Assembly: GCA_033807695.1 (NCBI GenBank)
Contig: CM066302.1
Location: forward strand, 4,340,001-4,404,000
Origin: Daedaleopsis sinensis
Lineage: Eukaryota > Basidiomycota > Agaricomycetes > Polyporales > Polyporaceae
Reading direction: 5' to 3'
Length of the DNA stretch: 64,000 nt
Part shown: positions 14,362 through 54,036 of the stretch, one piece after another
How positions within the stretch are numbered: position 1 is the first letter of the stretch
Layout of the letters: the number at the start of each line of letters is the position of its first letter
Notes under the pieces: generated by a model
What the model saw: the letters and a program-made list of their open reading frames with translations, nothing else
Told to the model about the DNA's origin: nothing
The model's database searches: none
Translations under genes and position numbers: made by a program

Positions 14362-14609
14362 GAGAGGGAAATCTGTCGTAGTAGCAGTCTACGTTAGTGA
14401 TACTAGTCGTTGTATCTCAAACTCCGGACCTACAAAGGTCTCGGAGTTCATATATTAGTGACTCGGAGTACCAGGTCAATGCATTTCAAAGGTCGTAAGA
14501 GACGGACACTACACGTTTCTAGCAGTGATAATTGATGCTCTGAGGATGTACGACGAGCGGAGACGCAGCACGAACCCCCACGGAAACTGTACATAGCTAG
14601 TGACATACT

Positions 14610-30879: not shown

Positions 30880-31540
30880 TCAATCGTCGAAATAAGATAC
30901 CAACTCTGCTGCACCCGGACTACTCGTACTTCTGGCGTTCGCTCGTGCAAACGCACTCTTTGACGGACTCCTCGGACTTCCTCCAATAACGACGCTCTCC
31001 TCGGACTTCTTCGGCGACTTGGTTTTCTTCGCGGTTCCTCGCCCGCGAGTCGGACTCTGCTCTCCAATCACACGGGGATTCTTGGCGTCGACATGGTTCT
31101 CAACACGCGGCTGACGCGAACTGTCGGAAAGTCCTCGACGCAACTCGTCTCATGTGGGGATGTCCGTTGGGCGACGAGAGATAGAAGTGGAGGTTGATGC
31201 GGAGCGGGAGCGCGCTCCCCGGCGCGCTGCTGGTGGTGAAGAAGGTACGCTGTGATGCTCTCCGTGTCCGAGGGTGTCTCGACTATGTGGTGGGGTGGTG
31301 GTAGGAGGCATCGCAGGGATAGGTGGAGACATTCTGGGAGGGGTGCTTGGGTCGTCAGACGGAGTGACGGTGTGCATGGACAGCGACCGGACATGTGTAG
31401 ATGTCGATCTCCCCCCGTGGTCGGCCGACATGACCGTACGGAAAGACACCCCTAATCCGCTCGGCGGTCGTCGTATTGCTCACGGGCGCTCCTCGCCGTC
31501 GGCGTTCTTTTGTCTGCGTTGTCAGGCAGGGGAGCCGTCC
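30880..31540 (-). pseudogene. Membrane protein Y, copy A, C-terminal part
   Basis: Homologous to the C-terminal tail of the intact gene Y (57817-59045): the same ending (SPGAAELVSYFDD), the same KKTKSPKKSEESVV and the same S/T/P-rich body. Relative to the intact copy it has a premature stop near 31153, where CCCACACGAGAC has become CCCACATGAGAC (Arg CGA to TGA). It is then cut off by the KDZ element at 31541, and its next segment is 22 kb away at 53938-54036. The gene's first exon with the membrane helix is absent from this copy. Non-functional. Confidence 0.85.
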
Positions 31541-31583
31541 ACACACTCTCTGGCCAGAGACCGTCGTAATAGGACGATCTGTG
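31541..31583 (+). repeat. KDZ left terminal inverted repeat
   Basis: ACACACTCTCTGGCCAGAGA followed by CCGTCGTAATAGGACGATCT; matches the inverse of 53887-53929 except for about four bases. Contains the palindrome TCTCTGGCCAGAGA. Confidence 0.85.
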
Positions 31584-32450
31584 GGGCAGGGGAACGGCTG
31601 TGCTGTACGACGAGAGGGATTGGCCGGCGGGAGAGCACGGGATCGATGTCGCACCCGCGCGTACGGACTACCCGTCGGTGCCGTCTTAGGTGAAACCTCA
31701 TCCCGAGGTTGGCTGCCGGCTTGGGCGCCGGCCGCAGATTGAATCGCGCGCAGATCTATACGTGTTCAGATTGAATTTGATGTATGTAGTACTAGTAGCG
31801 ACAATGTACAGTATGACGTCACGCGTTCCAAATGACGCTATTCAAGATATACGCGGCAAATCCTAGGCTTGTACAAAATCGCTCTTGTCCCAGTCATACG
31901 TCGCCGTCAGCTTCCTCCGAATACTACGCGAATGGCCAGGTTAGTCGTATTAGCTGTGCTTAATCGCATAGCTCACTTACTTTTCTTGAATATCGTCAGT
32001 CAGTCGGTGACTGGGGTGCGGCTGCGTCCGCAATTCAATACACGAATAACGACGAATAACGTACCCTACGCACCTCGTCCAAATGAAATGCTCGCCGCCA
32101 GGGCAGGCTTGGTCCCGGCAGAAACACGCGCGCTGAGCCGCGCCCTCCCCTGCCCCCTTTGCCCTTCCTGCCGTTCGATCCGGACGTCTGGTACGTGAAG
32201 CCGATGCTTTGCATCGCCTGTGCTGACCGTCAGCGCGAACAGCAGCGAGGATCGCGGACTTACTGCAACAAAGTCACGCCAATTCAAACGGCAGCGCGCT
32301 CCCGGGCCGATTTTGAAGATGGACGCGAATACCTGCGAGTATGTCAGAGATATAGTACGCGTTAGATGACGAGACTGACCTCATACAGCCGCCCTTTGAG
32401 CACTATGGCCATCTTGGGTAGATGCCGGACGAGTTTGGGTGCAGGACGCG
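31584..32450. other. KDZ left subterminal region
   Basis: No confident gene. A small open frame at 32159-32365 (+) contains a C-x2-C pair (MLCIACADRQRE) preceded in another frame by a Cys-rich stretch (PCPLCPSC); this could be the remnant of a zinc-binding protein, but nothing more can be supported. Confidence 0.4.
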
Positions 32451-32565
32451 TCCGGGAACGAACGCGACGCGCGTGGCGGCGTTAGGCAGGCTGACCTGTC
32501 CGATTGAGTTCATCGGCGGCGCCAGGCGCCCGCGCGCCGCCACGCGCGTCGTGTTCGTTCCCGGA
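32451..32565. repeat. 115 bp perfect-arm hairpin
   Basis: Arms 32451-32481 and 32535-32565: TCCGGGAACGAACGCGACGC continuing GCGTGGCGGCG on the left, inverse on the right with one mismatch; loop about 53 bp. Very GC-rich. Could be a tiny foldback MITE or a regulatory cruciform. Confidence 0.85.
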
Positions 32566-32587
32566 GTCGCTGTCGCTGGGTACTCCG

Positions 32588-33110
32588 TCAGTGGACGCGT
32601 CCCGCGCGTGGTGGAACCACGCCGCACGACACCGATTTCACCACAGGGCACGACACTGAAGGAGATGGCCGGGACGTCTTCCCCGTCCTGGCCATCGCCC
32701 CCGCCTCGCACCATCGCGCGCGGTGCGCGATCCCTTGCGGCTCGCCGCGCGCGAACGCGTGTTTCCTCACGCAGACCCCGAGCCCTTCTATATACCGCGT
32801 GGTCGTCTGCTGGGCGTCTCCTGTCACCGCGCTGCGGTAGAGGTCGTCGAGGGCTGTCAGTGCCCGCGGCACCGCGAGCTCCATGGAGTCGTGAGCCCCG
32901 CGATCCTACGTCCCCGCCGGGCGCCCATACAGCGTGACCGACTACACGCCCACCACCCCCGCCGCCGCTCTGCCGGGCAGCTTTACGTTCCATTCCCACC
33001 GCGCGCGTCGTACTGCTCACCACGCGCAGGTTGTACGACTTGCCTTGGTCCGCGCCCCACACCGCCATCATGGAAGCGCGGTTGAGATTACGTCTCTGCC
33101 TCAGGGCCGT
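32588..33110 (-). other. Possible decayed minus-strand coding fragment
   Basis: Two protein-like stretches occur in different minus frames: SMMAVWGADQGKSYNLRVV (about 33020-33080) and MELAVPRALTALDDLYRSAV (about 32825-32884), the latter continuing YIEGLGVCVRKHAFARGEP. They could be exons of one gene of unknown kind. The region is very GC-rich, so long open frames are expected by chance. Weakly supported. Confidence 0.3.
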
Positions 33111-33479
33111 CGTGAGTACTGCTTTCGCACACCGTCCCGATGGTGAACTCACTTCGCATGGTCTAGAGTCCCCCCCCCCCAACCCACAGCCGGGGTAAGC
33201 TGAGCGGCGGGGCAGAGAGGTGCGAGACTCTCAGAACGCGCCTCATGTCTGTATCGGTACACAACAGCAATTTCCACGTGAGGACTCCCGTCAGTACTGC
33301 GTTCACACCTCTGAGTACTGACCTGACTCACTTTCAAAGGAAGTCCGAGGTGCGCGCTCTAATCTCAGAGACTGATGGCGGCGATGGTCGCTCGCCGCCG
33401 TCCAACGCGGCCGGCGCCGGTACACCTCTCACTGCACTGGTGTCGAGACTCGGACGTCAGCACGCCGCCGCTCGGCGGT

Positions 33480-33955
33480 GACGCATTCCGCTGGCAGCAT
33501 CCGAGCACTTCTGCGGCGAACACGACGGCCCACACGGGTCCGTTGTGCTTGTGCAGAGTGACGAGCGCGTCTCCGCTCTCCGCGTTCCACACGCGGATGC
33601 TGCCGTCGTCGGAGGCGATCACGATCCGGCCGCCTTCTGCGGAGAACGCGGCGGCGCACGCGGCGGCGCAGACCATGCCCTTGGGGCCCTGGAGCACGGC
33701 CGCGTCCCAGATGGTTGCACGCGCTCTCCCGTCCCGCCTGTGGCCATGCGCCGGCCGTCGGGGGAGATCACGATGAAGGTGACGACAGCCATGTGCTTTG
33801 GTCGTACACAGAGGCGCGTACATGCCTGCGTCACATATGCCAAGCGAGCCGTCGGAGCCGCTGGCGATGAACTTGCAGTCGTCGGGGTGGACGCGCAGAT
33901 GATGATGTCCCCACGGTCGTCCCATGGTCCGGGTCCCTGTTTCTTGGCGCCACAC
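33480..33955 (-). pseudogene. WD40-repeat protein fragment, frameshifted
   Basis: Minus-strand segments read LRVHPDDCKFIASGSDGSL (about 33860-33915), FIVISPDGRRMATGG (about 33740-33785), and GRIVIASDDGSIRVWNAESG followed by LVTLHKHNGPVWAVVFAAE (about 33500-33640). These are WD40 repeat signatures (GH..V..V.FSPDG..IASGS.D..IRVWD), covering about two to three blades, but they lie in different frames with no convenient introns between, and no start or complete propeller. Best read as a decayed fragment of a host WD40 gene trapped in the KDZ element. Confidence 0.65.
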
Positions 33956-35037
33956 ATCGCTTCATGCGCAAATGTACAAGGAGTGAGTCCCAGGCCGTCT
34001 TCCGGAGGCGTACAGGATATATAACTCACAATATAATATCATTCAGCCCGCTAGAAACACACACTGCCATAGCCACCTCAGCGTGAGTGAGGTCTGTACT
34101 CCCAGATTTCAATGAGATACAGCTACGCATGACTCGAGGGGGAAGGGAGAGTCGCAGCTGCGACCGTCCCTATGCAGCCGGCTAAGAATTGATGCGGACG
34201 GTTTGAGCAGGACGGCAGTCGGGAGCTGTCGGCGTGTTAGAGACGAAGTCGTAAGCGGTGGTCGAGATCCAACGAAACGGGCCTTGCACGCCCCGAGGAT
34301 GTAGCAGTAGAAAGTAAGTCATTTCGTAGTCAGAGGTCAGAAAGGGCGACTCACGACTCAAGAGAGGTCAGCCGTACTTGCTGTGCTCCGCGACAGACCT
34401 GGGACAGCCGGCTGCAGCGACATTGCCCAACGACATACGACCCGTAGCGAACGTCTTCAACGACTCGGACCCTCACGGCCTGAGCGACATTTCTAGCGTC
34501 CTCGCAATAGTGTGCCTGCTTGGGGCAGCGGTTTGGCATGTACAGCGACCCGCGAGCCGGACCATGCGAAGGCGGCGACGGCATTGCGGGCTGAGATCTG
34601 TGGACGCGGACGAGGTGCTAGGCCGCAACCGCCAGCGCGACCCCGCCGGGCTGGGGCGTGCTCACAACCAAGTCCCAAAGAGAGCCAGCGGGTGCATGCG
34701 ACGGCGGCGAGCGAACGTTGCTGCCGTAGAAGCTCCTTGGGATTGGTGTTAGTCAGGTGCGTACTCGGAGACCTGACCAAATAAATGACTCACGACTCGT
34801 CGACGTTGATTGAACTCGACTTTCAGTTCGCACAGGTCCTGAAACAGAAGGGGCTCGCGATTGCGCTCGGTTACCAGAGACTGTGTCTGCAGCACCTCCG
34901 CATCGGCAGTTATCATGTCTGTCTGGTGTAATCTTGCCTGTGTGAGTCATCCTCCCAGGACGCCAAGTCAGTTGGCTGTGTGCGGGCGCAGCGGGTGGCG
35001 TGGCACTAACCTGTTCTACCAAGATATTCCTGAGGCG
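33956..35037. other. KDZ internal region, no gene recognised
   Basis: Only overlapping GC-driven open frames on both strands. In-frame coding continues upstream of the 35038 start, so a 5' exon of that gene could lie here, but none is supportable. Confidence 0.4.
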
Positions 35038-35845
35038 ATGGAAACCCCCAGGGTTTCGCGCGGTCCATACAGGGGTCGTCTACTGCGTATAATGCGCCCA
35101 GGGCGAGCTCGCATTCATGTCACTTGTGCTGTTCATGTTGTGGCACACGGTACGTCCCGAGCTTCTGTACGGCGTGGAACAAGACTCACGCACACGTTAG
35201 ACACGCTACGCTCACGCGCTCTTTCTCACTCGAGGGCTCACGTCACCAGAGCTGAAGCTGCGCAAGGTTAGATTCCACCGCTTTGAAATCAACGATGGAC
35301 AGGACCTACCAATACTTGAGGACTTGATGGGTAGGAAAACCATGACGTGGTGGGCTCGCCTGATGTTTCCCGACGGCGGAGATGTGAAGTACGACGTCTG
35401 GTGGTCCGAGCCCAATGTATCGCTTGGGCCGAATCAGAATCTACGCGCGCATTATCCCGAGGGGCCGGTGTTCTGCAGTGAACTGCTCGTGACCAAGATC
35501 ATCAATAACAAGCTCGAGGATATGCGGGAGGAGGACATCCATCACGCCTTCCTAGCTGGAGCGAGGTCAGTGCGGGGTACTTGTGGCGTTGTTCATCATG
35601 ATTGCTCATTTACGATGTACAGCGCGTCCTTGTTCGCTCTCGAAAATCCGAATGTGATACCGGAGCACGACTTAGAGATCCTCGTGGTTGTCGAAGCTGC
35701 CGACGCTCCCGGAGCCCCCGCCGCTTCTGGGGGCGCCGCCGATGGCGTCGGGTCCGGGGCTTCTGTTGGGGGCGCCGCCGCCGCCACCACCACAACGGCC
35801 TCCACCTCCGGTCCCACCCCAGTTCATTCCGGGAGGGCAGAGTGA
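35038..35845 (+). CDS. Uncharacterised KDZ cargo protein, paralogue 1
   Basis: Exons: METPRVSRGPYRG...VVAH up to the GTACGT donor near 35150, then from about 35250 ELKLRKVRFHRFEINDGQDL through EDIHHAFLAGA, and from about 35622 SASLFALENPNVIPEHDLEI with an Ala/Gly/Ser/Thr-rich tail ending at 35845. The central exon carries a pattern shared with the next gene: F-x-F-x-I, (I/L)P-(I/L)-L-E/N, a G, then A-R/H-(L/F)-x-FP-(D/N)-x-G, then YP-(E/N)-GP. No enzyme motif is visible. The start is uncertain because the open frame extends upstream. It may be a structural or regulatory cargo protein of the KDZ element; function unknown. Confidence 0.6.
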
Positions 35846-36205
35846 CTCCGTCATCGTCGTATATTTATCGGTTGGCACATGCTGGCGGAATCTGTACTTT
35901 CCAGTTGTTGGTCGCATGCACTTGGAATGAACATGTCGCGTTAGCGGACCATGGCTGGGACGCGTCTGCCTGTAGCGAAGGGCGATAAGTTTCTCTGCTG
36001 CGCTTCCTATTCCGTGCACTCACCGCCCCGATGATCGACGCTAGGTTATCTCTATCGCTACCTGAGACTTTGGAGGATAAGTCAGCCCCGTCAAGTTGTT
36101 GGGGGTCAATCGCACCTTTGTTCGACATCCTCCCTGGTCCTCACACAGCGACTCCATCCTCCCTCTTCCTCACACCGCATCTCAAACTCGCCGTTGATTG
36201 CGCAT

Positions 36206-36823
36206 ATGCCTCGGTCCAAAAGGTGGCATGAGGTATGTGATGTTTGCATGTTATCGTGCATCGGTTGCGTACCTTCCCAGATAGATACAGTGTCCGCCCT
36301 CTATTTGGACCACGCAGGCAAGAACGTGCTTGCGAAGCCTCACGACTTCTTGTACCACAAATTCCTGATCGGCGGGGTCGCTTGCATTCCGTTGCTCAAC
36401 GAGGTCTTTGGGAACGAGGTTGTGTCGCGGCGCGCGCACTTCGTATTCCCCAATACGGGCCACCACTTTGAGATTCACTACAGTTTACCAGACGCCGCAC
36501 GCGGGCCAAACCTCACCTTGAAAGGTCTGTATCCGAACGGACCTGATTTCAATGGCGACCTGTTGATTTTCAACTGTGGTACTCGTCAGTGTCATAACTA
36601 CTCAAAGCTGGAAGGACGGCCCCGCTCACTAGCATAACAGAGGCCCGTTTCATTCCGATGGGTGAGGTCGACGTTCCACTGGCGATCCGGGCGGCTGTAC
36701 GGTGAGCATATCGGCGTTGCGTGTAACAGCTTGTTGTTGATGTCCGAACGTAGCGCGACTGAGATGTGGCCCGATGATCCTTGGGCTGGTATAGCTGAGG
36801 CGGTATTGATTCCCGATGCCTGA
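36206..36823 (+). CDS. Uncharacterised KDZ cargo protein, paralogue 2
   Basis: Four exons: MPRSKRWHE (36206 on), then IDTVSALYLDHAGKNVLAKP through LLIFNCGT, then QARFIPMGEVDVPLAIRAAV, then ATEMWPDDPWAGIAEAVLIP ending at 36823. Introns are GTATGT...CCCAG, GTCAGT...AACAG and GTGAGC...CGTAG. The stretch FLYHKFLIGGVACIPLLNEV followed by AHFVFPNTGHHFEIHYSLPD aligns with paralogue 1 (FHRFEINDGQDLPILEDLMG, ARLMFPDGGDVKYDVWWSEP). About 190 residues, tandem with its paralogue and in the same orientation. No known domain recognised. Confidence 0.62.
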
Positions 36824-37019
36824 CAATACAATGGTAGCTATATCGTTCTAGTTACATTGTCACAAGACTCTGGATCGTGTATATGTGAGTCATTCGTTCT
36901 GAAGCGAGCACGTTGGGCATTGGGGGGTTTTGTCTGCACGGGACCGTCAGGCGGGGTACACGGTGATGTGAGGACGGACGCACCTCCTGGGTCCAAACAC
37001 TGGCACCCAGCTCGTCGCT

Positions 37020-39148
37020 CTACAGCGCGTCGACGTCAATCACCTCCCGGATCGTCTTCGGACTTCCCTCTGCCCTCATCACCGCCGTGAGGTCTTGGGG
37101 TTCGAGGTCGACCGCCGGTCCTTCCCTGGCTGTCGTGCGCACCCCAAACATTACGGTGCGAGCCGGCTGATGAAGTCGAGGGGACGCGGCATCATTGGGC
37201 GTCGTGGTGGAGCTGCCGGGGGCTTTGGTTGCCTCCGTGCCCGGATAGGAGAGACGGCGACGCTTCGATGACGAGCCCGCGGTGGTCAGATGTCCCGCAG
37301 CGCTGGCCTCGATCTTGACGTCAGTTGACCCTCCGACGTCATGAGCGCGGACTTTGGAGGCGTCGCGCGCCGGAAAGCTGATGGAGGCCGACCTCTTCGC
37401 ACTCGTCGAGGGTTTGTCTGCGCGAGCGACCGGGGTCGCGCTTGCAGGCTGGCTGAGGACGCGGCGTTTGGGAACGACGTGCGGCGGAATTCCGTCTACA
37501 ATCTCTAAGGAGGGTGAGCGTCGGGGTACACGTGTGGCACGTCCAGATGGCCCGGCCTGGCCCACGGAAGGGCGCGCGAGCAGCTCAACCTCGGGGCTGC
37601 TCGAATGCGGCGTCAGTTCCCCACCGGCCCCGGTCGTGTGCCCTGTCGCTGGTTGCGCGCGTTTGGTAGCCGACAGTTTCGTCGGCAGCGAGGTGGCTTC
37701 CGGGCTGGTAAGCGCAAATATCTCGACCCCTAGATACTTGGGGGCCTGGACGTCGTTGAACAGCACGAGGATGGTATTCTCCTTGGGGCGGATTTTGATA
37801 GGGTCGTAGAAGTCGTGCTTCTTCCAGGTCGTCCAGTCGGCGTCCCACACCTTGATGTCTACGTCCAGGTCGGACCTGGCGTTCCACTTGTGGTACAGCT
37901 CGTCATGAGCGCTGAGGACAATTTGACGGTCGGCGTTCAGGTCGCACATGTACACGGTGGGAACTAGAAGGGACTGTATGCGACGTTAGTGAGTGTGTGC
38001 GCGAGCGTGCGACGACGTACGTGCAACCAGCACACTGCGGCCACTTGCCCGGGCGGAATGTTGCGCGCTTTGATCGTGTTGAAGTGCGTGTGGGCCTTTT
38101 TGAGCAGGGCCTTGCGAGCGCGCTCGCTAGTGCCGCGACAGTCTTCTAAGATGTGCAACTGCTCGCCAAAGTGCTGCAGGTGACGGATATTGGATTGGCG
38201 GACAAGTACCGCGGTGCTGTCGGGCGGGATGTACACAGGATCCTCGAACAATCTGAACCAGTACGCGTCGAATTCGTCCCACACCCTCCAAGGTTCAATT
38301 TCGGGGTGAGGAAGGGACCAGCTTGCAATGAGCTCACATACCCCAGTGGACGTCACTTCGATGGGGGTAGTGCCAGGCCCTTGGTCCTTCTGGTAATGGG
38401 AAGTTAGAGTCATTGTTCCATTTCGAGCACCTCAACGACGTACCTCGCCCCAGTAGAGAATGGCAATCTCACGCAGTTGTGGCGGATCGGGGACGGGCTC
38501 CTGGACATATAAGTTGTTTGACGTCAACGCCCGATGGAACGGTAGCGAGCGTACCTGGAGTCCAACTGCCTTCCTCTTCGCCTCGTCCTTCGGTACAAAC
38601 ACGGGGGGCAGCGCCGTGGATATGTTCGCGCGCAGTTTGTCCGCAGCTTTGAGTCGATCAGCGTTGATCTTGCGCGCGTTTTGAGCGGCGGCGGTCATCG
38701 ACGTCGCGGATTTTGGTGGTTGCGTGTGTGTGCGAGCGGTAGTCTTGCCTTTGGCGGCCTTCGCGAGGGCCTTCACTTCTTTCTCGTACTTGATCAGGTC
38801 CTTCAGCGCTTCAAACTGTGGTCCGCGCAGGCCGCTCGCAACGAAGACGTGGGCCTTCAGGCACAGAGTACACTAGGCAGGCCAGTGAGCAGCGGACGTC
38901 GCATTAGTTAGGCGCCATGGACTTACAAAGGCGCTCCAATTGGAAGCAATGTCGTCCTTGTAACATATGCGGAGCACCATGCTAGGCCCCATCGAGCAAC
39001 GGGGACATACTGGGGGAAGGGGAGGCAGCCGTTCGAAGGATTTTTCGTGGCAGAGACGTCGTCTGTCGGCACTGTATTCGGCGTTGCCGTCTAGAGTGAC
39101 GTCCCCGAAAGAGTACCCTCGAGGGAGAGGTGGTGGATCGGGGGGCAT
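37020..39148 (-). CDS. Uncharacterised KDZ cargo protein with Cys-pair N-terminus
   Basis: Start MPPDPPPLPRGYSFGDV at 39148. The N-terminal exon holds PPVCPRCSMGPSMVLRICYK and the next exon begins CTLCLKAHVFVASG, giving two C-x2-C pairs that could bind one zinc. A basic, probably coiled-coil stretch follows (DLIKYEKEVKALAKAAKGK), then a folded region with EPVPDPPQLREIAILYWGE, WRVWDEFDAYWFRLFEDP and VYMCDLNADRQIVLSAHDEL. The last 220 residues are S/T/P-rich and end TIREVIDVDAL at 37020. Five or so exons, GT-AG introns. Likely nuclear and nucleic-acid or chromatin related by composition only; no homologue is claimed. Confidence 0.65.
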
Positions 39149-39575
39149 GGTGCGGAGGGAACTAGAGGCATCAGTGGTAAGTTTCCGTTTGCTAAGTAAT
39201 TCGAGAGCCTGCGCAAAAAAAATTCAGGGCGATCTTCTCTCCCGATGTCACCGCCCGTTGTATGATACTAGGGCCAAGTCCTACACCCTAATTTTGCGGC
39301 GGGCGGGTTGGTGTGTGTTCACCCATGCGCTTCTCGTGTTTCATGGCGTCAACCTGAGGTATCTCGGCCCGCAATTTAACTGTGATCCGCAGACTGTCGT
39401 GCCGTTACAATTCACAGACATCACATTGTGTCGACGGACGGGTAAGATCATGCAGATTCCACGCGATATCTCATGCAACCAGTCTCCGAATACGTGCCCC
39501 AATGGTCTACGTACGTTCTGGAAGGCAACAGAGGAAGTAGGAGTGTACTTATGTAAGTCTCGGCGAGTGTTTCTT

Positions 39576-41525: not shown

Positions 41526-41735
41526 TGTGTGATCACAAGCAGAGGTGAGCGCAGAAGGGAAACGAAGGGTAACGTACCCCTTCAGGTTTCTTTGCGATCA
41601 CTCTGTGAAGTTATCATATCAGCTGTTAATTTATGTGAATCGGAACAGAACACGACGAACCTTGTGAAGTCTCATTAACGCGCGGAATAGTATTTTGACT
41701 AGTGCAAATGCGTATGGTGCGTATGATACACAGTT

Positions 41736-44365
41736 TCAGGCGGGAAAAGGTACAGGAGCGATCGGAAGGCGGTGGAAAGTCATGACAAATGTACGAACGT
41801 AGAACTGCACAGCAGCCTCCTGAACGTCCTTGAACATCTCCGGCCCGAAGTCACCTGACGAGGCAGATACGATAGTGGCTGGGGATCCGGGCCATCGGGA
41901 GAGCACAGTCACGAACGCCTTCAGAGTATCGCGGGCGACCCCTTCAGACGAATGTGACCACCAGCGATATACCCTGTCCTGATCCTCGACGCGCGGCACT
42001 ACGGTCACCACAGAAGAAGGCGAACCCCACACGGTCGTTACCAGAGCCTCTCGCGTCCAACGATGGATCTCCCACCAAGTCGGTCGGTGCACCAGGGCGG
42101 TGTCGAGGGCCATGAGCTCGGCCCGGAAGTTGGTCTCGTGGCACTCCCACAATATCCTTGTCCTCCAGAGAGGGCATTCACGGAGGTCCTGCATGCCGAG
42201 CGTTTGTCCGTCCCAATCGGCGTTCGCATCCTCCGTGTAAGACTGTACCTGCGCCACGCGGGAGAACAGCTGCGACATTCCATTGTGACCTTCTTGGCGA
42301 CGTCGCGCGCGGCGATGATCTGAAGCGGACCCGTGCAGGACGGGCGCATGAGTTCGTGCTTGGTAGTCACCCCACAACGCCGAGCGCCATTCCGCAATGG
42401 AAAGTGGATCATTCGATAGCGAGGGGTCGAGGATGCGCGCGCGCAGGAAATCTCGGATGCGGATGTAGTTGTGGAGGTACCGGTGCACTTTCTCGTCTTT
42501 CCTCGCGACTGGGGCACCGCCCGCAGGCGTCCATGTCATGCGCGAGGATATCGTGTCGAGGAGGAAGGGCGGAGGGTAGAAGTACAACGCCGACGCCGGG
42601 GACGGTGCGACAGGAGAGTTTGCTCTCAGCGCGAACTCCCATGATGGAGCCAGATTGACAAAAGCCGAGGGTACGAATGACTTCGCGGGCTGAACCGCGA
42701 CGGGTTCTCCAGCGGGGGCCGGCCGATCGCTAACCGGTTTTGGAGCATCGGGCGGAGAGTGGACGTCTAGGCTACCTTTACCCCCCCGACGACGACGGCG
42801 CGGTTTATGCTGACCCTCTCCCGAGCTGGCTGCGACTTTCGCGACACGCATACCGAGGTGACCTGCTTCCAGCGACGGCTCCGGTCCCTTGAGGCGTTTC
42901 CGCGCGGGCTCGGCAGGGATGTCAGGAGCCTCAGCCAGAGATAGTGACGCCATGCAGCGACCCGCCAGATGCTTGGAGACTGCGAGCACCATGTCTCTCT
43001 GCCACGCACCCGCAAGGTTGGCTACACCTGCGATGTGCTGCGAGGCCTGGAAAATCGGGGGATTGCTCGCGCGGTCTGAACAGCGTGGGAATGAGACATC
43101 GACGACTTGCCAAATCGGCAGCTTGTTCGTGTGGGGCTGCAGGAACCAGATAGGGACGCCGACGCGAAAGAGACTGGCAGCATCGGCGGCGTCTCGCACG
43201 AATGCGCCAACGACGTTCAGTACCTCCTTGCTATTGTTGACGCTGCTCTCCAACCTGGGCACGACGACCTGCATGTAGATTTTAAGACCCAACAGCTCAA
43301 GCGATATTCTCTGAACGTGTGCGGCTACGGCAACGGCAACGGTGGACGACGAGGGCAAGTGGGTCATACGGTCAAGTGTTTGCGTGAGGATGGTGATGAG
43401 GAAATTGGCATACTTCTTCACATGGGGGGGCACGTGCAGCACCTCCCATAGCTTGATCACATCACGAGCAGCTTGGTCGAGGTCCCTACTCACAGATGAG
43501 CGGAGAAAACCGAGACCGTTGAATCCGAGGGAGTGATGTTGCGTCCAATCGCACAACGGATCCAGCGAGCGCCAAAGACACGGAGGGAACTCCTCGGATG
43601 CCAAGGGAATGCAAGCTAGATGCCATCGGCCCCGGCTGAGATCCTGAGGGTAGGTGGAGTACTCGTGCATGCCCCATCGGCCGTCACTGTACGTCTCGAT
43701 GACCGGGGTCTCGCGAGGGTATGCCCATACGTTGTCCGAGTTGGGCGTCGTTATCACCATGCGATCGAACCCACCGCGCGCGGCCATTCGACCGTGGAAG
43801 AACTTAGAGCACACGGGCAGAACTGTTGGATTTGAGCTGCAATCCAATACGAAACCGATATACAGACTCACCTTTCGAACGCCTGTTCACCTTAAGCACC
43901 GGAAGTTCCTCCTCTTCGCTCTCGGTAGGGGCATCTTCGTCTGACATACTGGGAGTCTTGGGGATTTCACTAGCTACGTCCACCGAGGAACTGTGACACG
44001 TTAGTATGGATCGTCTCGGCGTCGTCTGCAAAACACGTACATGTTAGGGACGTGCACCACAGTGCCAGTGTCATCCTCAACCTCACGAAGGGAGTTCGAC
44101 GTGCTAGATGCAGATAACGTCGTATGCACATCGTCTCTGGCAAATAACTGCGTCAGATAAGAAGATATTGGGTATGCAGCCGTTATACACACCGGGGGAG
44201 ATCAATCGATCCAGTCGGGGAGGCTTGCGATCGAGCGATCGGTTCAGAAGGTGGGTTGGGAGCGGGCGGCGTCGAAAGTTGATCGCGGACGATACGTTTG
44301 AACTTGGGATATTTGGGGCGAGATGATGCTTGAGCAGCGGTGCTGCTAGCTGGCTGGTCGACCAT
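41736..44365 (-). CDS. Large uncharacterised KDZ cargo protein
   Basis: Start MVDQPASSTAAQASSRPKY at 44365. Three short 5' exons (including LFARDDVHTTLSASS and SVDVASEIPKTPSMSDEDAP) lead into one exon of about 690 residues without interruption, beginning VLPVCSKFFHGRMAARGG near 43810 and ending RLPIAPVPFPA at 41736. The N-terminal half is folded and leucine-rich with conserved-looking tryptophans (WGMHEYSTYPQDLSRGRWHL). A basic linker (HKPRRRRRGGKGSLDV) divides it from a C-terminal half containing RYLHNYIRIRDFLRARILD and LWRTRILWECHETNFRAEL. No known enzymatic motif. It is divergently arranged with the KDZ transposase across about 1 kb. The unbroken long exon argues for selection. Function unknown. 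Confidence 0.7.
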
Positions 44366-45427
44366 TGGGGAGCGTTGCGCGAAGGTGGGCAGACGAGCGT
44401 GCGGAGTCGTGAGCGGGCGGGACGTGCGTCGTTGGGGAGATTTGGCGAAGGAGCAATGTGCGTTGGGCGCAAGGGTTGGTCCAAAGAGGTTTGACGGCCT
44501 GGGTCGTACAGTAGGTCGTACACAGAGTGAGCGCAGGGGTTGGCAGGGGGTGATATGACTTGATGGTGCCGTCGGGGTACCGAGCAGTGTGAGCTCTAGA
44601 GCCACACACGCCGTCGTACTGGTTGCCTAGAGGGGCGATCGAGGGCCAGCTTTATAGCAGGACGCGACGACCAGCAACCCGTGGTGTAATCGGGAAGAGC
44701 ACTGGAAGAAATCAGGGTGGGGAGCAGCGAGGTGGTGGAGAAAGGAAGGGAGAGTGTGGGAAGGCAGGCGCGCTGATTGGGAGTAAATCCCACGGCCCTC
44801 TCGTGCGAATGGTACCGCATCACGTGGTCGCGTTCAGAGCGCCAATTCCAATTTACACGACAAGCGCGAAGTCCGACAATTTGCTTTCACCTCATAGCCT
44901 TCGCCCATGATCGACAGCTACGCTTAACATATCTACACCACGACGAACCCCACGAGAACACATCATCCCGCCTCTCGACCACGACAGAACGTCCTGTACG
45001 TCGACCTCAACCGTTGCGCACCCAAGTCCACGCAAGGCGACCGACCCGTCAACCATTGCCGACTCCAATCGCCATCTGAAAAACTCGCGCGAAACGTTGC
45101 CCGCTCTATACGCTGCAACGTTTGCCGAGCCGAATCGTAGAGAGCCTTTCTGGTTGGTCTGAACCACCATAGAGAGGTCTTCTCGCCAAACAAGGCCCCG
45201 AAGATCGCAACCGCGTTCGGAGAGAGAGAGAGAGAAGGACGCTGAGGAGGAAATTATCAGCCAGGTCAAGTAGGTAAGCCCCACATTCCGCCTCCGAGAT
45301 AGCTATGGTGGCAGCGGAGGACGCGCCCCAATGATCAATGGGTCCAACGTCGCACCTCGACGGCGTGGCCACGAGTCGCTTAAATCGCCACTCATGCTAC
45401 ATTCTAAGTCAGACCTGCTTTACAAAC
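44366..45427. promoter_or_regulatory. Divergent upstream region between cargo gene and KDZ transposase
   Basis: About 1.06 kb without recognised gene between two head-to-head start codons. Open frames here are opposite-strand shadows or 5' leaders. A (GA)n microsatellite lies at about 45223-45236. Confidence 0.45.
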
Positions 45428-48400
45428 ATGCTGCGGGGGAAACCGCAGGCCGTATCGCACCGACAACGACAAATCAAGCGGCAGGTGCTGGTCCCGGGAA
45501 CCCACTCAGAATCCCCCACGCGTACACCCCCTACCACCCCAACCAAAATCAAACTCTACGACGGACATGGCCGTGCTTCATGTCCCCCCAAGGACACCAA
45601 TCTTCTCCACCCCGAGACCGTCGTGGGGTCGGACATCCCTTCTGGCGACATTTCCAATCTGGCCAACGATTTCGACCGCCCGCCGACTCCGTCTGCTTCT
45701 CGGAAAAAAACCAGGGGAGAGGACATTTCACAGGCTGGCCCGGCAGACAGTGCACAACCCGGGCTTGACAGAGACACTCGTCATTTGGTTAGTAATTATC
45801 CTCTTTATTGCTTAGCTCTCATCATGACAAGCGAGCAGCCTTCGTCACACATGGCCGCTTTCCTCGAGGAGCACGCTGAACAAGCGCAGGACAGCCTGGA
45901 CGCCCGAGAGGTTCCTCCCAGTGCGATCGGAGCATGTCCATCATGCTGCCAAACTATGGACGACGAGGAGGGACGGAGGGCCACGTTGTACAAGTGCCAG
46001 GATTGCATCCTTTTGGAACCCATGTGCCGCGTTTGTATACTAAATGCCCACAGGTACCGACCTTTGGATCGCATCCGTCAGTGGTCTCACGAAGAAGGCT
46101 GCTGGGTGAAGGTCCACATGAAGACGCTTGGACACAAGATGTACCTTGGACACGGTTCCAAAATCTGCCCCCAGATTCCGACGCGCGCGGACGGTATCCC
46201 ACTCCTTCAAAACCGCATCAGGCCTATGGTAATTATCCACGATCACGGCATTGTCGAGGTCGACGTAGTATTCTGCGAATGCGAGCCGCGTCAGTCTGCA
46301 GCTGCGCAACTCATAACCAGCGGTCTCTGGCCCGCGACGTGGGAGTACGCCAAGACGGCAACTACGCTATCGGCCCTCGAGGTGTTAGATGCGCTGACCC
46401 TCGAGGCCGATGTGACCATCCACGACTATGGCAAATATCTCAAGCGCATGACCGACGGCGTAATAACGGACGACGTGCCTGTGAGTTATGCTCGCCGCGC
46501 CCCCCCCCACGAAACGTAACTGACCGGATATAAGGATCGATATCGCGAGCTGAATCAGTCGACGCGCCAGTATTCATTCATCAAGCAATGCCGGAGAGCA
46601 GGTTTACGACCATCGAGGGGACTTCCATTGCGCAGTCTCACGTGTAAGTGCCCCGCATGTCCTCAGCCGGACGTAAACATGCGCGAGGGATGGCGAGACC
46701 GCGATCCAGCATTTCGGTAAGCCCTTGTCAATATCGCCTGCGCCCGTATCACACGCTGAAACGGGTGGGTCACAGGCATGTGGACGCCTTGCACATATCC
46801 ATGGACGGCAACTTTCACTTCAACCTGAAAGCGAGACACACTGACGCGGACGACATTCCGCTTACCATGGGAGCCGGGTACTTTGTGCACGAGCAAGACT
46901 TTGCAACGTATCTCGCCAAGTTGCCCAAGGACAAAACTAAGGAGGTGAGCGCGCAGTAACCCACCTCGCCGATAAATATGTGTTCACCTCGTGTTGCTCT
47001 AGCAATCGACCTGTTCCCAATTTGGCGCGATGCAATATGGCAAGTACAAAGGCGATCTGTCTGGTGTCGTAGCTGTGCTGTGTCGGCATATGGTGGTGCT
47101 TCCCGGAGGGATCGTCGACTTGCACCGAGGGGAAAGGTATGTACACAGCCCGAGGTGTTGTACACCTGACGCTAATGTACAGACGAGCACAGATTTGCAT
47201 ACGTCACGCTTGTGCTTGTCTCAGCCACGCAGCTGTATCTCAACCTGTTGCTCTTCATCATCGTGTACGACATCTGGTGCCAATTCGTCAAGAGGTTGGG
47301 AATACGACTCCGCGAACATTTCTCCGAAGATGTTTTGGCGAGCCTAGTATCCATCGACTCCGCCAAGCTGCCGGAGATCCGCGGAGGCGTTGGGAAGCTG
47401 CATGTGAACATGCACAACATCGAATGTTGTCGTCGGTACACCCTGAATTTTCTACCCTCCACCTGCATGGACGACGGCGAGACCTGCGAACGACTCTGGG
47501 CATTTATTAACGCGTTAGCACTACGCGCCAAGGAGATGACAGCCGGACATCGACATGACTTTCTGAACGACGTTATATCAGCGCACAATGTGCGCCAGAT
47601 GCACCAGATGGGTGAGCGTTTCATGACGATCAACGATGATAGTACTGAGGACGGTTCGCAGTCAATTCCCTGGTGACGAAGCATGATCAGGGCGCCCCCC
47701 AGCTTGCAGACCTGCGAGCGTACATGGAGCAGCTCGAGCAGTCTATTAGCCGGCACTGCGACAGCGACCCACTGCCACAGTGGAGGGAGAATGAGAAAGA
47801 ATGGAATCAGAAGGCCAAAGCGCTGGAGGAGCACCCCGACCTGCACTGCCCATACGAAGCAGCGGCGCATATAGGTGAGCCACGGTCCTATGCTGAAGTT
47901 CAATTCTAACCGCCCTTCCAGAATTGAACTCGCGCCAGGTGCTAGACACTATTACCGAGCAACTTGCAGAGACTGGCAACCAGGACGGCATCGGCCTAGC
48001 CGGTGTTATCCACGATTGCTTAGAGTTTGACCTCGCGCGGTGAGATACGATATGTGCACGCCATTAGTGGGATGGCCAGCTAACGTTAACTAGAAAGAGA
48101 ATGCGACTCAACATACGAGAGTTCGACGGGAAGACGGAGAGCAACCGCGTCCAGTTGAATACCAAAGTCACTGAACTGGCGACGCGCGCGCTCAAGCTAA
48201 GTTCGCGCTACATGAGGTTCCTCCAGCCGTTGATCAACCACGCCCTCACGAGCGCACAGACTGGGAGCGAATTGTCCCATGCCGCGCCGACTGCGCCCGC
48301 TGCGTCAGTACCGCGCGGGGAGTCCATCCGGCCATCAAGCCTCGGCAAGGCCGACTTGAATTGGGGCCCACGCCGAGAGGACGCAGAAGAACTAATTTCA

Positions 48401-49443
48401 GACGACGACGACTGCAGTGAGGACATCTACGCTGAACGAATGGCGAACTCGCAGGAGGACGTTGTCACCTCGGACCCTGAAGCTACGCTGGAAGATACAG
48501 CGCACCGACCCCATCAGGCTAAACGCAAGCGAAGGGAGCCGACGGGGTTTCAAGCCGAGCTTCTCGCCCGTTTGAACGAGACGAATCTAGCTCTGCCTTC
48601 CGATTTACCTGCTCGACTTCGCACCCATGAGTACTTGCAACGCGCCGTTGAACTCGAGCTGAACATTCGGCGAGGATATGCCGGCGAAGCCCTAGACGAC
48701 CTGCAATTACAGTTGCTCACCCACGCCACCGTGTCTCAACGAAGGAAGACTGGCGGGTCAGGGCAGAAATACAACACGAAGGTCATGGGGACGCTGAATT
48801 TGAAGAAGACTGCGATCAAGCGCGCGACTGCCCGTTACCGGGAGGAGCGAGAGATCCTGCTGCTACTTGGAATGAACGCTAGCGACCCGCAGCTGAAGGA
48901 GCTGAAGGACGCGCACGTCTGCGCATTCACACTGGTCTTCGAGGAACAACGCCTGGGCGACAGTAGGAGCACGCCGTCTTGGATATGGGGCGACTTTGGG
49001 TTTATGGAGAAGGCAAGCGACGAACAGATAAAGACATTCATGCTCGAGAGTGAGTGCCTCGCAATGGTTCCCCAGCGGCCCACTAATCGCAATCGTAGGC
49101 GTCCGGGTGCACTGGTTTAGGTATCGCGCCCTAGTAGCGAGGTGGACAGAGGAGATGGACACATTGGAAGAAGAGATGTTCAGGACGCTCAATAGCTACA
49201 CGGAAGGCGTCGAACATTGGGACGCGGTTGCGACTCAGTACGAAGCGCGAGGCAGGTTCGGAGCGGCGGCATACTCTAGACGGTACGAGATATCCCCCTG
49301 ACCCTTAGCTGACCGCCGCCCCAGATCTAACGCGCGCTATTAGTCAACGTTTGCGATTCAAACGACTAGCGAGCCAAGCTATGGCGAAGTTCCCGGAGAG
49401 CATCTACGAGGTTGTGCGCGCGGACCCAAACCCACAACGATGA
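45428..49443 (+). CDS. CxC2-KDZ transposase
   Basis: DDE-type transposase of the 22.4 kb element. Start chosen at MLRGKPQAVSHRQRQIKRQV, with an in-frame ATG at 45338 as alternative. After a basic, S/T/P-rich leader comes the cysteine-cluster (CxC2) region: GACPSCCQTM, YKCQDCILLEPMCRVCILNA and VVFCECEPRQS. The KDZ core follows after about 46560: PACPQPDVN, ALHISMDGNFHFNLKARH (first catalytic Asp), FGAMQYGKYKGDLSGV-type linker, YDIWCQFVKRLGIRLR, HNIECCRRYTLN and GETCERLWAFINALAL (probable catalytic Glu), then RQMHQM. The C-terminal part is helical and charged (RQVLDTITEQLAETGN, KVMGTLNLKKTAIKRATARY) and ends DPNPQR at 49443. More than ten exons with short GT-AG introns; the joined frame is open. 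The family is known to accompany TET/JBP genes in mushrooms. Confidence 0.92.
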
Positions 49444-51510
49444 TGAGCTAACCGCAGCTCGCTTACAGGGAGTCGGAATGCGAGCAACGTCCGGAGGGCA
49501 GCCGACCTCGACAGCTTCCGGAACGCCCCAAGCCCGGACTACACAGGGAGGCGCGAAACCACCGCAACCGCGTGAATGACTGTAGAGCGGGGCGGCCAGC
49601 TTTATCTACCAGAGCTCGTTTGACCCTGAAGCCGTCGTACTAGAGCCTGCCGTCTGGCCTCGGAAACTCATAGTACGCGCCAAGGTACGGAGAGATCGCC
49701 TTGCGATCATTTGTAGGGCGCTTCCCTCCCTGACTGATTCTCCTAGCAGCACTTTGGACCCCCGTCTTTTCGCTTGTAGCGTCGTTCTTCCTCGCTCAGT
49801 TGTCTCTTACTATTCAATATTTGCCTTGTTCGGTACAGTGTCCCGCGCGCTATCAGCACCTGCCCTAAAGCACCCAACATAACCTGATGTCGCCCGCGCG
49901 GTCAGCGCGAATGACGTATATATAGTCCGCGAGAGCCATAGGATCAAGTCTTTACCACGCCTCTCGCTGAAGCCTTCCCGCGCCGACAGCATCGTTCGAC
50001 AGACTGCTGCAGACAGTCTGTGCGAACGACACTGTCTGCACCCAGACCTCTCCGTGCCCACGCCAGCCCCAGTGCGCCTCCAACACGTCGTTCCCGACTT
50101 TCCTGACTCGGATACGGCCCATCTTGAGTCACCTAGCGGAGGTCATTGGACCGCGCCAGCTTCCACGAAGTCCATCGACACACCTTCGATGTCGCGGCGG
50201 CAACTGCGCGCGAGTGTTTTTCGATTGGACAATGCGAGACTATGAAGGAGCATGAGGTTAGGACAACAGAGGGTATTTTTTAACCACGAGACCTTACGCA
50301 TACCCGCGAGGCAGGGTGGAGCGACGCGCGCATTGAGGGTGAGGGATAAGCGTCTCGCACCTGTGGACGGCAGGGTCACTGTCAAGAATGGGTAACGCAT
50401 GACACACACACCTAGCGGGCCAGCGTCCGCGCGGCACACGAGGACGGAGGAGTCCGTGCAATAATGAGTCATGAACGCTGCCCGCCTCCAAGTAAGCGGG
50501 GGAGACTAGACTGAAGTAGCAGGGACAACTGACGAAGCCCGGGAGATGAATATCCACAGTCCAACCCTCGTCCGGTGACAGGCGTCGTGGACGCTCGAAG
50601 TCATCGGCTCGGGCGGAGAGACTGTGATCCCACAAGTGCGAGCGAGGGACGAGACCGACTGGCAGCGTCGCCGCTCTGCGGTAGCCTGAACAGGCCTCCC
50701 TGGGTGACACAGCAGTTTTGGGTGGCCAACCCGACTGCAGCTATACCCATTCGCTGTGCTGAGATCCGGCGTTGTGCGCACAACGCCGTTTGCTCAGCAA
50801 GGGCTCGTATGTGGGGGTCTCGCGTGGAGAGACAGACGGAGAGAGGAGATGGTGGGGGAGACGGTGCGCTGCGTCTCAACACTTACGCAGTTTTAGCGCA
50901 GCCCTCACTGGCCCCAGATTGCACGACTTCCGAGTGCGATAAGGATATGCCGTGAACTTATCTGGTCCCCATGACCCCGCTGACAACGCCTGCTGCCTGC
51001 CTATCTCACGCTTCTGAACCGTATCTCGCTGACGAAGGGTGCGTGGCGGCGTAAATGAACTCTAGGTCGTTCCGTAAACTCACGCGCACCGGTCAGGAGT
51101 CCTTTCGCGCTGCCGCACCGTCACCAAATAGCCAAATCCAACCCCGTTGCGGACGATCAGCGCGACCGCGGCCGACCCGCAGTACCCGACGGCGCCCCAT
51201 GACGATGTCGCGGCGCGGAAGACGCTTATCGCCCAACGGTAATATTGGGGGTGCGCGCGACGATCGATGGCCGCGCAGCCTCCGGACAGAGCGGCGAGCG
51301 CGGACAAACTCGCCGCGGGGCCATAGCAGGTCCGTATAAATGAACAGCAGCGCGTTCGAGTCTCTTCTCCCGCTGTCGTCCCCCCCGAACTCGATCTGCG
51401 CTTCCACCGCCCAGGCTTCTGTTCTCCCCCTTGCCTAAGTCAGTAGTAAGCACGGCGCGCCATTACTACCCGAACCGTTCTCACAATCCGCCCCGCCGCA
51501 CAGGAAGAAA
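49444..51510. other. GC-rich spacer between KDZ transposase and TET/JBP gene
   Basis: About 2 kb with no convincing gene. An ORF at 50054-50245 (+) and several minus-strand frames (51093-51407) look like composition artefacts. It contains a short inverted repeat GCAGACAGTCTGTGCGAACG around 50012-50035. May hold promoters or decayed cargo. Confidence 0.4.
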
Positions 51511-53177
51511 ATGGGGATCATTCTCCGCTCTGATTCTCGCCTCAATCTTCGGAAGGTAAGTAGACAGAGTCGGGACGCGGACGCGCTCTCGACGTAGCTC
51601 ATGGGTTTGCAGCGTTCTATCGCGCGCGAACACGCTTCGGCGAAAAGGCTGTCCGACCTTTGCAGCAAGAAGCGCCCGGTGCATCAATTCGTAGATGCTG
51701 GTTAGAGCGCGCACTCACAGACATGTACAGAAAATACCGAAAGAATTCAATGTGCGCGCGCCGGCGGCTTTGGCTCATCGGAAGGCCGAGGCGCGCCAGC
51801 GCAGTGCCGACGCCCAACAGCGTCGGTATGTCCTCCAGATGGAGCACAACCTGGCGCAGTACATGGAGAAGGTCCCGATATTCCGCTCCGAACACACGTA
51901 CGAGGAGATGGAGAGCGAGGCCCGCCGCTCGAAGACCGGAGTGTTGTCAGGTCTTCTACAGCGGTGTGAGCTCCAACTCAGGCACAAGCCGATCGCGAGG
52001 AGCTCGCGCATCTACCAAGACGCGACAGGACGTACACTCGCCGCTTACTTTGGCTATCGGCTACCCAGTACGAAGGTAAGCTCGCGCGCGAGCATCACGG
52101 TCCTTAGCTAACGCGTGGGCATCAGCGCGGCGGCGTGCAGCCCATCAGCGACTAGTACTTGGGCCACACCAAGGCGGACTTCGACCTCGCGCGCGCCCGC
52201 GGCGAGATCGAAAGGTTCGACGGAATCTCGGTGAGGTTGGCGCAGTATACACCGAGATGTTCGCTGACCAGTACCCCAGCCGAAGCTTCTGCCGGACGCG
52301 CAGGTCGCGATTCAACGATTGCTATCCCAGGACCAGCCTGTCCTCGCTCCTCGCGACGGTCGACACCTCGACGACCGGTACGCATTGGACAGCTACCTGC
52401 ACACTTTCGTGGACGGCCAGACTGGGGAGGTGATTAGAGAGCGTCGCGGCGTGCACCACCTGGTGCACGCCTGGACGCCGCAAGGGCACCCCAATGGGGT
52501 AAGTGCCATCTGTCGCTTTCCATTGCGAGGACCGGCGGACGATAACATTTCGCAGCGAATGGTACCTTCAGCTGATATGTTGGGCGGCGGTGTCGCGGCG
52601 AACGCTGTCGAAGTCGAAACCTACTTCTACGCCACAAGGACTGTCGCTCTCCTGCTGGCGGAAATGTTCAAGGCAGTATTCCCGGAGGAATACAAGCGCT
52701 ACCGCCAGGCTTTCGACGCCGGCGTGTGGGTCCAGTCCGACCCCGGTCCGTGGTTGGGCCGCGCGATCGTGTACAAACTCGACGTCAACTTGCACTTCGA
52801 CGGGCTCGACGGTGGCCCAACCGCTACATTCCCAATCGGTCAGTTCACAGGGGGGACGCTCGAGCTTCCACAGCTGTGGGCGCGACTAGAGTAAGTCCCC
52901 CAATCCTTGAAATGTACGCGCTATTGACCAGTTCCCAAGGTACGGGCCTGGCGCGGTCCTACTGTCCCTCTCCGGCGTCATCGCGCACCGCGTCCTGCCG
53001 TGGAAGGCGGTCTCCGGCGAGGAGGACGCGCGCATCGGGTGCACCCCCGGGCGCATTGGCAACGTCTTCTTCTTTCCGAAGAATTCGTTGAACCGGCTCG
53101 AAGATCGCCCGGCAGGCTGGGGCAAGCGCACCGCGTATGGACGATACGAACGTACGAGCAGCACGTCCGATTCTTGA
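51511..53177 (+). CDS. TET/JBP-family 2-oxoglutarate/Fe(II) dioxygenase
   Basis: Family members oxidise 5-methylcytosine or thymine in DNA using Fe(II), O2 and 2-oxoglutarate; acting on methylated host or transposon DNA is inferred. The short first exon MGIILRSDSRLNLRK (51511-51555) is tentative. The next (from about 51736) has the helical leader KAEARQRSADAQQRRYVLQM and KTGVLSGLLQRCE, IYQDATGRTLAAYFGYRLP. The catalytic part includes YLGHTKADFDLARARGEIER, FPEEYKRYRQAFDAGVW and KLDVNLHFDGLDGGPTATFP (H-x-D iron ligands), then GQFTGGTLELPQLWARLEYG, VLLSLSGVIAHRVLPW (third iron ligand H), and VFFFPKNSLNRLED. Stop at 53177. About 425 residues in six exons. One intron-acceptor choice matters: using CATCAG at about 52127 leaves an in-frame TAG, whereas GACTAG at 52154 avoids it. 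It lies downstream of the KDZ transposase in the same orientation. Confidence 0.88.
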
Positions 53178-53876
53178 ATAGTTCTGTACTCTAGTTCGCT
53201 GTAGGCAAATCGCAATGTACGTTATGCGCGAGCGCGCAAGAATGTTTTTTTTACTTCATGGTAATGAACAAAGGACTGCGTGCGTTCTACACGCATACGA
53301 CGACAGTATGCACAACCGGGATGCGCGTGCGTATCATATCGAAGGGCGCGCCCCGCGCGTAGTACGAGTCGCTGCTGCATCTTATCCATGAATATGGGTG
53401 AGCATGCACAGACGGCCAAGAGCGCGTTCTACACGCGTCTGAAGAATTTACTATTAATGGGCGCGGGAGAGGCGGCGTAACGCAGGGGACGCGTCGCGCC
53501 CAGCCCCAGTTTGGATGCGCTGGCGGCGCGCCCTCGGCGCGCGCGAAGGGCGCGGCCGTGGGGCGGGGAGCCTTCTTCAGGGAGGCCACCCCGATCCCAT
53601 CGGGCGGGTCTCTCCGGGGCCCGCGGCTGATGGCGTGCCGTCCCGCTTTGATGGTGCCTGTGATGGCCCCACGGGCCACCGGAACGGTCGGAATCGCGAG
53701 CGCCTCGGTCGTCTTCACTGCACGTCTAGCACACTCAAGAGGTAGGCCTGACATAGCCTTTTTCTTGGAAATGACATTGTAGACTAACAGGTGCTACTGC
53801 ATAGAGTCGGCAGCCCAAGTCTGGGGGCGAACGGACGCGAAACGAACGCGGGAGAGCTACGGACATTTACAACGCG
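53178..53876. other. KDZ right subterminal region
   Basis: No gene recognised. Includes a T8 run at 53244-53251 and the repeated word GCGTTCTACACGC (53280-53292 and 53422-53434). GC-rich open frames on both strands are judged non-coding. Confidence 0.45.
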
Positions 53877-53929
53877 CTCTCTGGCCGACGGATCGTCCTG
53901 TTAGGACGGTCTCTGGCCAGAGAGTGTGT
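53877..53929 (-). repeat. KDZ right terminal inverted repeat with internal fold-back
   Basis: Inverse of the left end. In addition 53877-53886 (CTCTCTGGCC) is the exact complement of 53915-53924 (GGCCAGAGAG), and GTCC-TGTT-AGGAC pairs between them, so the right terminus is itself a hairpin of about 48 bp. Confidence 0.8.
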
Positions 53930-53937
53930 ATACTATA

Positions 53938-54036
53938 CGGCAGGGTGGACGTCGTCGGGAAGGCTCGTAAGTGCGAATGTGAGTAGGGGAAGGTGGTGGT
54001 ACGAGGGTTATGCTGGAGTGTGAGGAACCTCCCGGA
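53938..54036 (-). pseudogene. Membrane protein Y, copy A, segment right of the KDZ element
   Basis: Starts GGCAGGGTGGACGTCGTCGG and matches 58462-58563 in the intact gene Y (shared AAGGCTCGT, GTGCGAATGTGAG, GGGGAAGGTGGTGGTACGAG, GAACCTCCCGG). It stops abruptly after CCTCCCGG at 54036, where protease-like sequence begins; the remaining N-terminal part of Y is missing. It continues the fragment at 30880-31540 across the KDZ insertion. Confidence 0.85.

Follow-up and report, generated by a model that had tools for sequence, protein, structure and literature searches.

The window analysed here, 64,000 nucleotides of the polypore Daedaleopsis sinensis (contig CM066302.1, C3:4340001-4404000), holds at 31532-53938 a single insertion unit with a 7-bp target-site duplication (TSD), polar ends that recur elsewhere in the genome and a conserved gene set. 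We think it likely that this unit is an entire DNA transposon of the cut-and-paste kind, 22.4 kb long and probably still with coding capacity, from a KDZ lineage that we term KDZ-B, and that in it a companion gene for an 824-residue protein and a TET/JBP-like gene would serve as transposition partner and DNA-modifying enzyme. The genome that was searched (also G000) comprises 51.6 Mb in 24 contigs, and relatives are named by contig (C1 to C11). Gene models are computational and come from a simple script for spliced open reading frames, trained on long frames. The features are as follows.

31525-31531, plus strand: TSD, left copy GGCAGGG, identical to 53939-53945
31532-31540, plus: left tip GAGCCGTCC, beyond the inverted repeat, on the side of the 634-residue gene, common to other copies
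31541-31589, plus: left subterminal inverted repeat, 49 nt, palindrome TCTCTGGCCAGAGA at 31547-31560
33365-33961, minus: WD40-repeat fragment (WD40, 6.2e-9)
35201-35845, plus: paralogue A, frame between stops
36035-36637, plus: paralogue B, frame between stops
37020-39148, minus: 634-residue protein with Cys pairs, model of 5 exons, relatives at 10 other loci, each beside an 824-type gene
41736-44365, minus: 824-residue putative partner protein, model of 4 exons, head-to-head with the KDZ gene
45338-49301, plus: CxC2-KDZ transposase, model of 9 exons; 45824 is a possible alternative start, and exon 47073-47136 is doubtful
50561-50822, no strand assigned: stretch that precedes the TET-like gene, with matches of 74-78% to the whole or parts of it at four further TET-like loci
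51839-53177, plus: TET/JBP-like dioxygenase, 386 residues, model of 4 exons, with HFDGLD and AHRVLPW; N-terminus may be incomplete
53877-53929, minus: right inverted repeat (53881-53929), palindrome at 53910-53923, hairpin fold at 53877-53924
53930-53938, minus: right tip ATACTATAC, read inward GTATAGTAT, on the 3' side of the KDZ gene, common to other copies
53939-53945, plus: TSD, right copy GGCAGGG

The inverted repeat at 31541-31589 and 53881-53929 (49 nt, 90% complementary) heads the list of inverted repeats in the region; another pair at 32451-32565 (54 nt, 78%, arms 7 nt apart) is longer but weaker. The initial 20 bases of the 49-nt repeat are found at 34 places in the genome with at most 3 mismatches, compared with 5 for a reversed-pattern control, and the perfect 14-bp palindrome TCTCTGGCCAGAGA stands at 15 places, all of them ends of the family of the window element, with none for its reversed control. 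The inverted termini described in an earlier note on this DNA are thus present, and they do recur at other loci. When the flanks of the copies are compared, one end continues as GAGCCGTCC and the other as GTATAGTA(T/C) in nearly all copies displayed. Because the flanks continue past the repeat as common tips, the start of the element lies outside the 49-nt repeat. The earlier note had placed the ends at 31541 and 53929, which is ruled out by the shared 9-nt tips and the GGCAGGG duplication outside them; the single delimited unit stands, with its true ends 9 bp further out on each side and a total of 22,407 bp. DNA of the right end (53860-53938) folds into a hairpin with a z-score of -5.0 (0 of 200 shuffles as good), and the hairpin at the left end has no significance (z-score -1.2).

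Seven short copies of 644-698 bp carry both tips and have five distinct flanks, and two more end pairs were read by eye (C5:2642726-2644571 and C5:3430.7-3431.0k). Counting copies read at both ends, exact 7-bp duplications are found at 6 of 9 distinct sites (the window, C5:1085010, C4:1406711, C11:2927745, C5:2642726 and an element on C10). At two further sites 6 of the 7 duplication bases match (C1:4941897, with the flank of C4:445326, and C3:156555, with the flank of C4:1190301), and C5:3430.7k is without duplication. In five of the seven short copies the similarity to the window element is 90-92% over 100-106 bp at the left end and 74-75% over ~300 bp at the right end; in the remaining two it is 79-82% over 194 bp on the left and 71-76% over 102-137 bp on the right.

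A second complete element could be delimited on C10. It has a total of 22,081 bp, a 333-bp inverted repeat of 99.4% identity (C10:3224538-3224870 and 3246274-3246606), 6-nt tips GTAGAT and CGGCTC outside the repeat and GCGATTT flanks on both sides. These tips, which were picked from a grid of offsets by comparison with the window (otherwise the shared flank reads up to 10 bp), agree with those of the window in sequence and polarity, with GTA.. at the 3' side of the KDZ gene and ..CGGCTC at the side of the 634 gene, so that the terminal CGGCTC matches the left tip GAGCCGTCC. The C10 element carries the 634, 824 and KDZ genes, and the protein search of the genome gave no TET-like match in it. 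The left subterminal stretch of the window element matches both outer regions of the C10 locus in inverted orientation; a search for the inverted repeat of the window gave nothing at the C10 element, whose own repeat is unlike it. A related palindrome, TCTCTGGCTAGAGA, lies 1.5 kb past the TET-like gene of C3:3057k. No ends were delimited for the near-identical pair C4:4244-4266k and C2:670-692k, where the similarity exceeds the left stretch and enters repeats on the right; this pair may be a segmental duplication. Flanks that are identical or 99% identical also surround copies on different chromosomes (C1/C4, C3/C4, C2/C4), as recent segmental duplications or larger mobile units.

A CxC2-KDZ transposase had been claimed for this element, and the Pfam search bears this out with both domains significant (CxC2 1.2e-21, KDZ 4.8e-25; the KDZ domain of the gene model reaches 101 bits against a cut-off of 26.6). 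The CxC2 cysteine cluster is N-terminal to the transposase domain. MDGNFHF, YDIWC and CERLW are all contained in the model and are candidates for the D-D-E catalytic triad. A tree was built from 49 KDZ domain pieces of this genome (129 columns); in it the 11 rows beside an 824 gene form one clade (98/88) and the 9 rows beside an AG-type TET gene form a separate one (100/100). The 11 rows represent 11 of the 14 KDZ-B loci and were selected for adjoining 824 genes, and a long-branch warning applies elsewhere in the tree; the 27 ungrouped rows derive from the 30 best Pfam hits, and KDZ-B copies lacking an 824 gene could escape such a sample. Judged by this tree, the KDZ lineage of the window is distinct from the KDZs that adjoin ordinary AG-type TET genes in this genome. 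We rejected the names Kyakuja and Zisupton for it: the 7-bp TSD speaks against Zisupton, for which 8 bp is reported, and the inverted repeat and the tips other than CA..TG speak against Kyakuja.

The gene content of the related loci was counted with one own-genome search per protein, the coordinate lists being copied by hand from the search tables for the distances. At all 14 KDZ-B loci detected (N-terminal match, E <= 1e-54) an 824-type gene stands head-to-head with the transposase gene, the matched stretches being 1.5-2.9 kb apart. Among the strong 824 loci (E <= 1e-46), 14 of 16 have a KDZ-B gene within 10 kb, where 20,000 random draws gave a maximum of 3 and a mean of 0.11; the remaining two are C4:1455907 and C5:198841. 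The 634 gene (E <= 8e-4) lies 2.6-5.7 kb from a same-strand 824 gene at 11 of 11 loci. Ten of the 14 KDZ-B loci have it, three have the paralogue pair and two the TET-like gene, namely the window and C3:3057-3075k, both with the order 634-824-KDZ-TET. Because the 824 and 634 genes recur at the detected KDZ-B loci in this way, the "cargo" is, by its sequence relatives, mostly a set of recurring components of the lineage and not a random collection.

This modifies what the earlier note had proposed. A delimited unit with its own TET/JBP-fold enzyme is confirmed, and the description of its other genes as cargo is to be corrected. The companion genes are not single-copy host genes either, but multicopy and mostly adjacent to KDZ genes. 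The paralogue pair (blastp 1e-12 between A and B), the Cys-pair protein and the protein of ~830 residues are all present, the last two with 634 and 824 residues in our models. An HMG-box-like protein had been listed as well; none of ten frames and three gene models scanned gave an HMG-box match in Pfam, and a separate gene of this kind was rejected. We count four unknown genes and the WD40 fragment instead of five or more unknown cargo genes. The 824, 634 and paralogue proteins gave nothing significant in Pfam, and the 824 protein had no significant PDB match (best profile value 1.2, best Foldseek E 2.5, with a model whose predicted local distance difference test (pLDDT) is 56). Similarity between the paralogue pair and the 634 protein stayed within the range of 60 shuffles. 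The WD40 fragment shares 57% identity with part of an 835-residue frame at C4:4529998 and also resembles other WD40 genes; it was probably captured from a host gene family, and it looks like the sole piece of the element with such an origin.

Two further loci concern the 824 gene. At C11:1087583-1103648 an 824-type gene is split by ~14 kb that hold another KDZ hit (C11:1090909), a KDZ element nested in a KDZ element. At C4:3347157-3351523 a distant 824 homologue (24-31%) stands beside a KDZ gene of a different lineage, which may mean that the partner gene predates KDZ-B.

The model of the TET-like gene scores 12.5 bits for Tet_JBP, where the Pfam cut-off is 34.9 and the best of ten homologues scanned reaches 25.3. 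Searched against PDB as a single sequence, its exon found no match, and a family profile was required. The modelled fold of a homologue is nearest to CcTet, NgTet1, TET2 and CMD1; rows ranked below this TET group (AlkB, FTO, PHD; VIA-align, Foldseek) we took as shared superfamily fold only. Going by this model, the TET/JBP assignment is right, far below the Pfam cut-off as the score is. Like CcTet (AG type) and NgTet1, the family has an HxD...H iron site, with HFD and AHRV in the window model and the HxD nearly invariant. The pocket differs between the two references, and the window enzyme has Asp at His+5 as in NgTet1, that is at the place of CcTet 331, and none at the place of 337, unlike the Gly331/Asp337 of CcTet. 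AG rows of this genome (11 rows from 22 loci) have Asp at His+5 in 0 of 11 and at +11 in 11 of 11 cases. The Asp that contacts 5-methylcytosine (5mC) in NgTet1 is kept in 18 of 20 homologues showing the motif. The HxE of the PE type is not present in the window enzyme, which has HFD. By these residues the enzyme is neither AG nor PE type, and we predict that it is a 5mC oxidase. For the TET/JBP gene with NLHFDGLD and IAHRVLPW reported earlier, gene, motifs and fold (of the homologue) are therefore upheld; it misses the Pfam threshold and is not the AG type associated with KDZ elements. AG-type genes give at least 22 hits in this genome; 21 of 22 have a same-strand KDZ hit within 10 kb (partners picked by hand), and none of the 22 has an 824 gene within 20 kb. 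The residue split between the two types predicts their substrates, 5mC alone as against 5mC and N6-methyladenine (6mA). At C5:2386873-2390919 a KDZ gene from a third lineage is followed, 2.4 kb downstream, by a TET-like gene.

The pairing of KDZ and TET/JBP genes is itself not new, as the earlier note had said. The available text of Kojima 2025 (PMC12730594) describes TET-bearing Kyakuja transposons of Agaricomycetes, the only TET-bearing KDZ transposons it reports in Polyporales, and likewise proposes an anti-silencing role for transposon TET genes. Kyakuja resembles the window element in its KDZ transposase, the TET/JBP gene inside the element and the 7-bp TSD. It differs in having CA..TG termini, no terminal inverted repeats and an AG-type TET, whereas the window element has GTATAG../..GGCTC as its outermost bases (GTA../..CGGCTC tips), the 49-bp subterminal inverted repeat, a non-AG TET, the 824- and 634-residue companions and a transposase clade apart from that of the KDZs which neighbour AG-type TET genes in the same genome. 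Zisupton and Dileera belong to the KDZ superfamily as well, with 8-bp TSDs according to the same text, while the window element and its relatives have 7 bp. Intact KDZ elements with a preceding CxC2 are described from Pleurotus in the accessible part of PMC7641404. The active Cryptococcus KDZ1, also a large KDZ element with inverted repeats, has ~11 kb, 241-bp terminal inverted repeats, an 8-bp TSD and CxC1, and the part of PMC12810828 at hand mentions no TET gene in it. Within the literature as available, we found no account of the 824 gene, the window tips or a non-AG HxD TET on a Polyporales KDZ transposon, and the supplementary tables of PMC12730594 or Iyer et al. 2014 may list such elements. 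As far as these sources could be read, the partner-gene lineage, the tips and the non-AG TET type are new.

We suggest that the KDZ protein makes its cuts where the asymmetric tips and the inverted repeats lie. The 824 protein, divergently transcribed from a shared intergenic region, would be its obligate partner, possibly an end-binding protein or a complex subunit by analogy with accessory proteins of other DNA transposons. The TET-like enzyme would be an optional module, exchanged between elements, that oxidises 5mC on the DNA of the element and so counters silencing by methylation, and the short copies would be non-autonomous derivatives moved in trans. The stricter form of this proposal, a two-protein KDZ-B system with an obligate new 824 subunit and polar, non-identical tips, together with another TET/JBP type whose pocket is conventional and specific for 5mC, we put forward tentatively and would not call probable. 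If it were true, one fungal genome would have armed two KDZ lineages independently with different DNA-demethylating enzymes, one for 5mC and one for 5mC and 6mA. What had been a list of unknown cargo becomes a defined system, for which intact ends, short derivatives and a closest relative are in place. Three questions can thereby be put to the test: does KDZ transposition depend on a second protein, do transposon TET enzymes act on their own DNA, and do TET-bearing and TET-free elements of one genome differ in methylation. The notion that transposons remove the marks that silence them becomes testable as well.

Several points weigh against this proposal. The 824 protein lacks a detectable fold relative, so that its proposed partner role rests on linkage, and the structural model of the TET-like homologue has low confidence (mean pLDDT 50.5). 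By eye, the place of NgTet1 His297, which contacts the base O2, is not His in the TET-like family. With 2 of 14 loci carrying it, the TET-like gene is not needed for movement. Of the 325 candidates in the KDZ-B search 47 were scored. Three weaker KDZ matches (C5:218559, C5:266767, C6:3049842) with no 824 gene within 10 kb were left out and would make the count 14 of 17, and seven weak 824 matches were excluded from the 16. The 14 loci stand for fewer independent events, since they include near-identical duplicates (C2:672k, C4:4260k). No second copy of the exact window element turned up in the assembly.

This single copy, together with short relatives that are only ~71-92% like the window ends, would suit a relic that kept its sequence, lost its mobility and persists as one locus. 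We regard this as unlikely, though as a possibility to be taken seriously, in view of the exact TSD, the long open frames and the strong purifying selection that separates elements show (the comparison was between families and did not concern the window copy itself). The TET-like enzyme might be active mainly on something other than DNA 5mC, be it another base, RNA or protein. Its low Tet_JBP score and the missing His297 equivalent would fit, and CMD1 shows that the fold is capable of different chemistry (available parts of PMC12730594 and PMC11040006); the closest solved folds belong to enzymes that work on methylated DNA and the 5mC-contacting Asp is widely kept, and we consider another main substrate doubtful.

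That the transposon simply gathered unrelated host genes agrees with the WD40 fragment and with the sparse occurrence of the paralogue pair and the TET-like gene. It seems quite improbable to us given the fixed order and orientation in which the 824 and 634 genes recur, and given that two homologues each are present in Ganoderma leucocontextum and G. sinense. TET-like genes also occur at places without a detected KDZ-B gene, which could hint at two nested or abutting elements, one with the KDZ and one with the TET-like gene. A single TSD encloses everything, however, and C3:3057-3075k repeats the entire gene order, which makes two elements very improbable indeed.

Outside the transposon, the window contains a Plavaka transposase gene at 25316-28980 (plus strand, 4.5e-104), 2.6 kb upstream of the element and of a class that is likewise TET-associated in fungi. 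Two transposase-like genes at 13469-17932 (minus) and 20792-23333 (plus), without significant Pfam match, are presumably hAT-like with a BED-type zinc finger, as judged by eye. Two similar membrane-protein genes, at 10852-11609 and 55827-56948 (plus), bracket this transposon-rich stretch.
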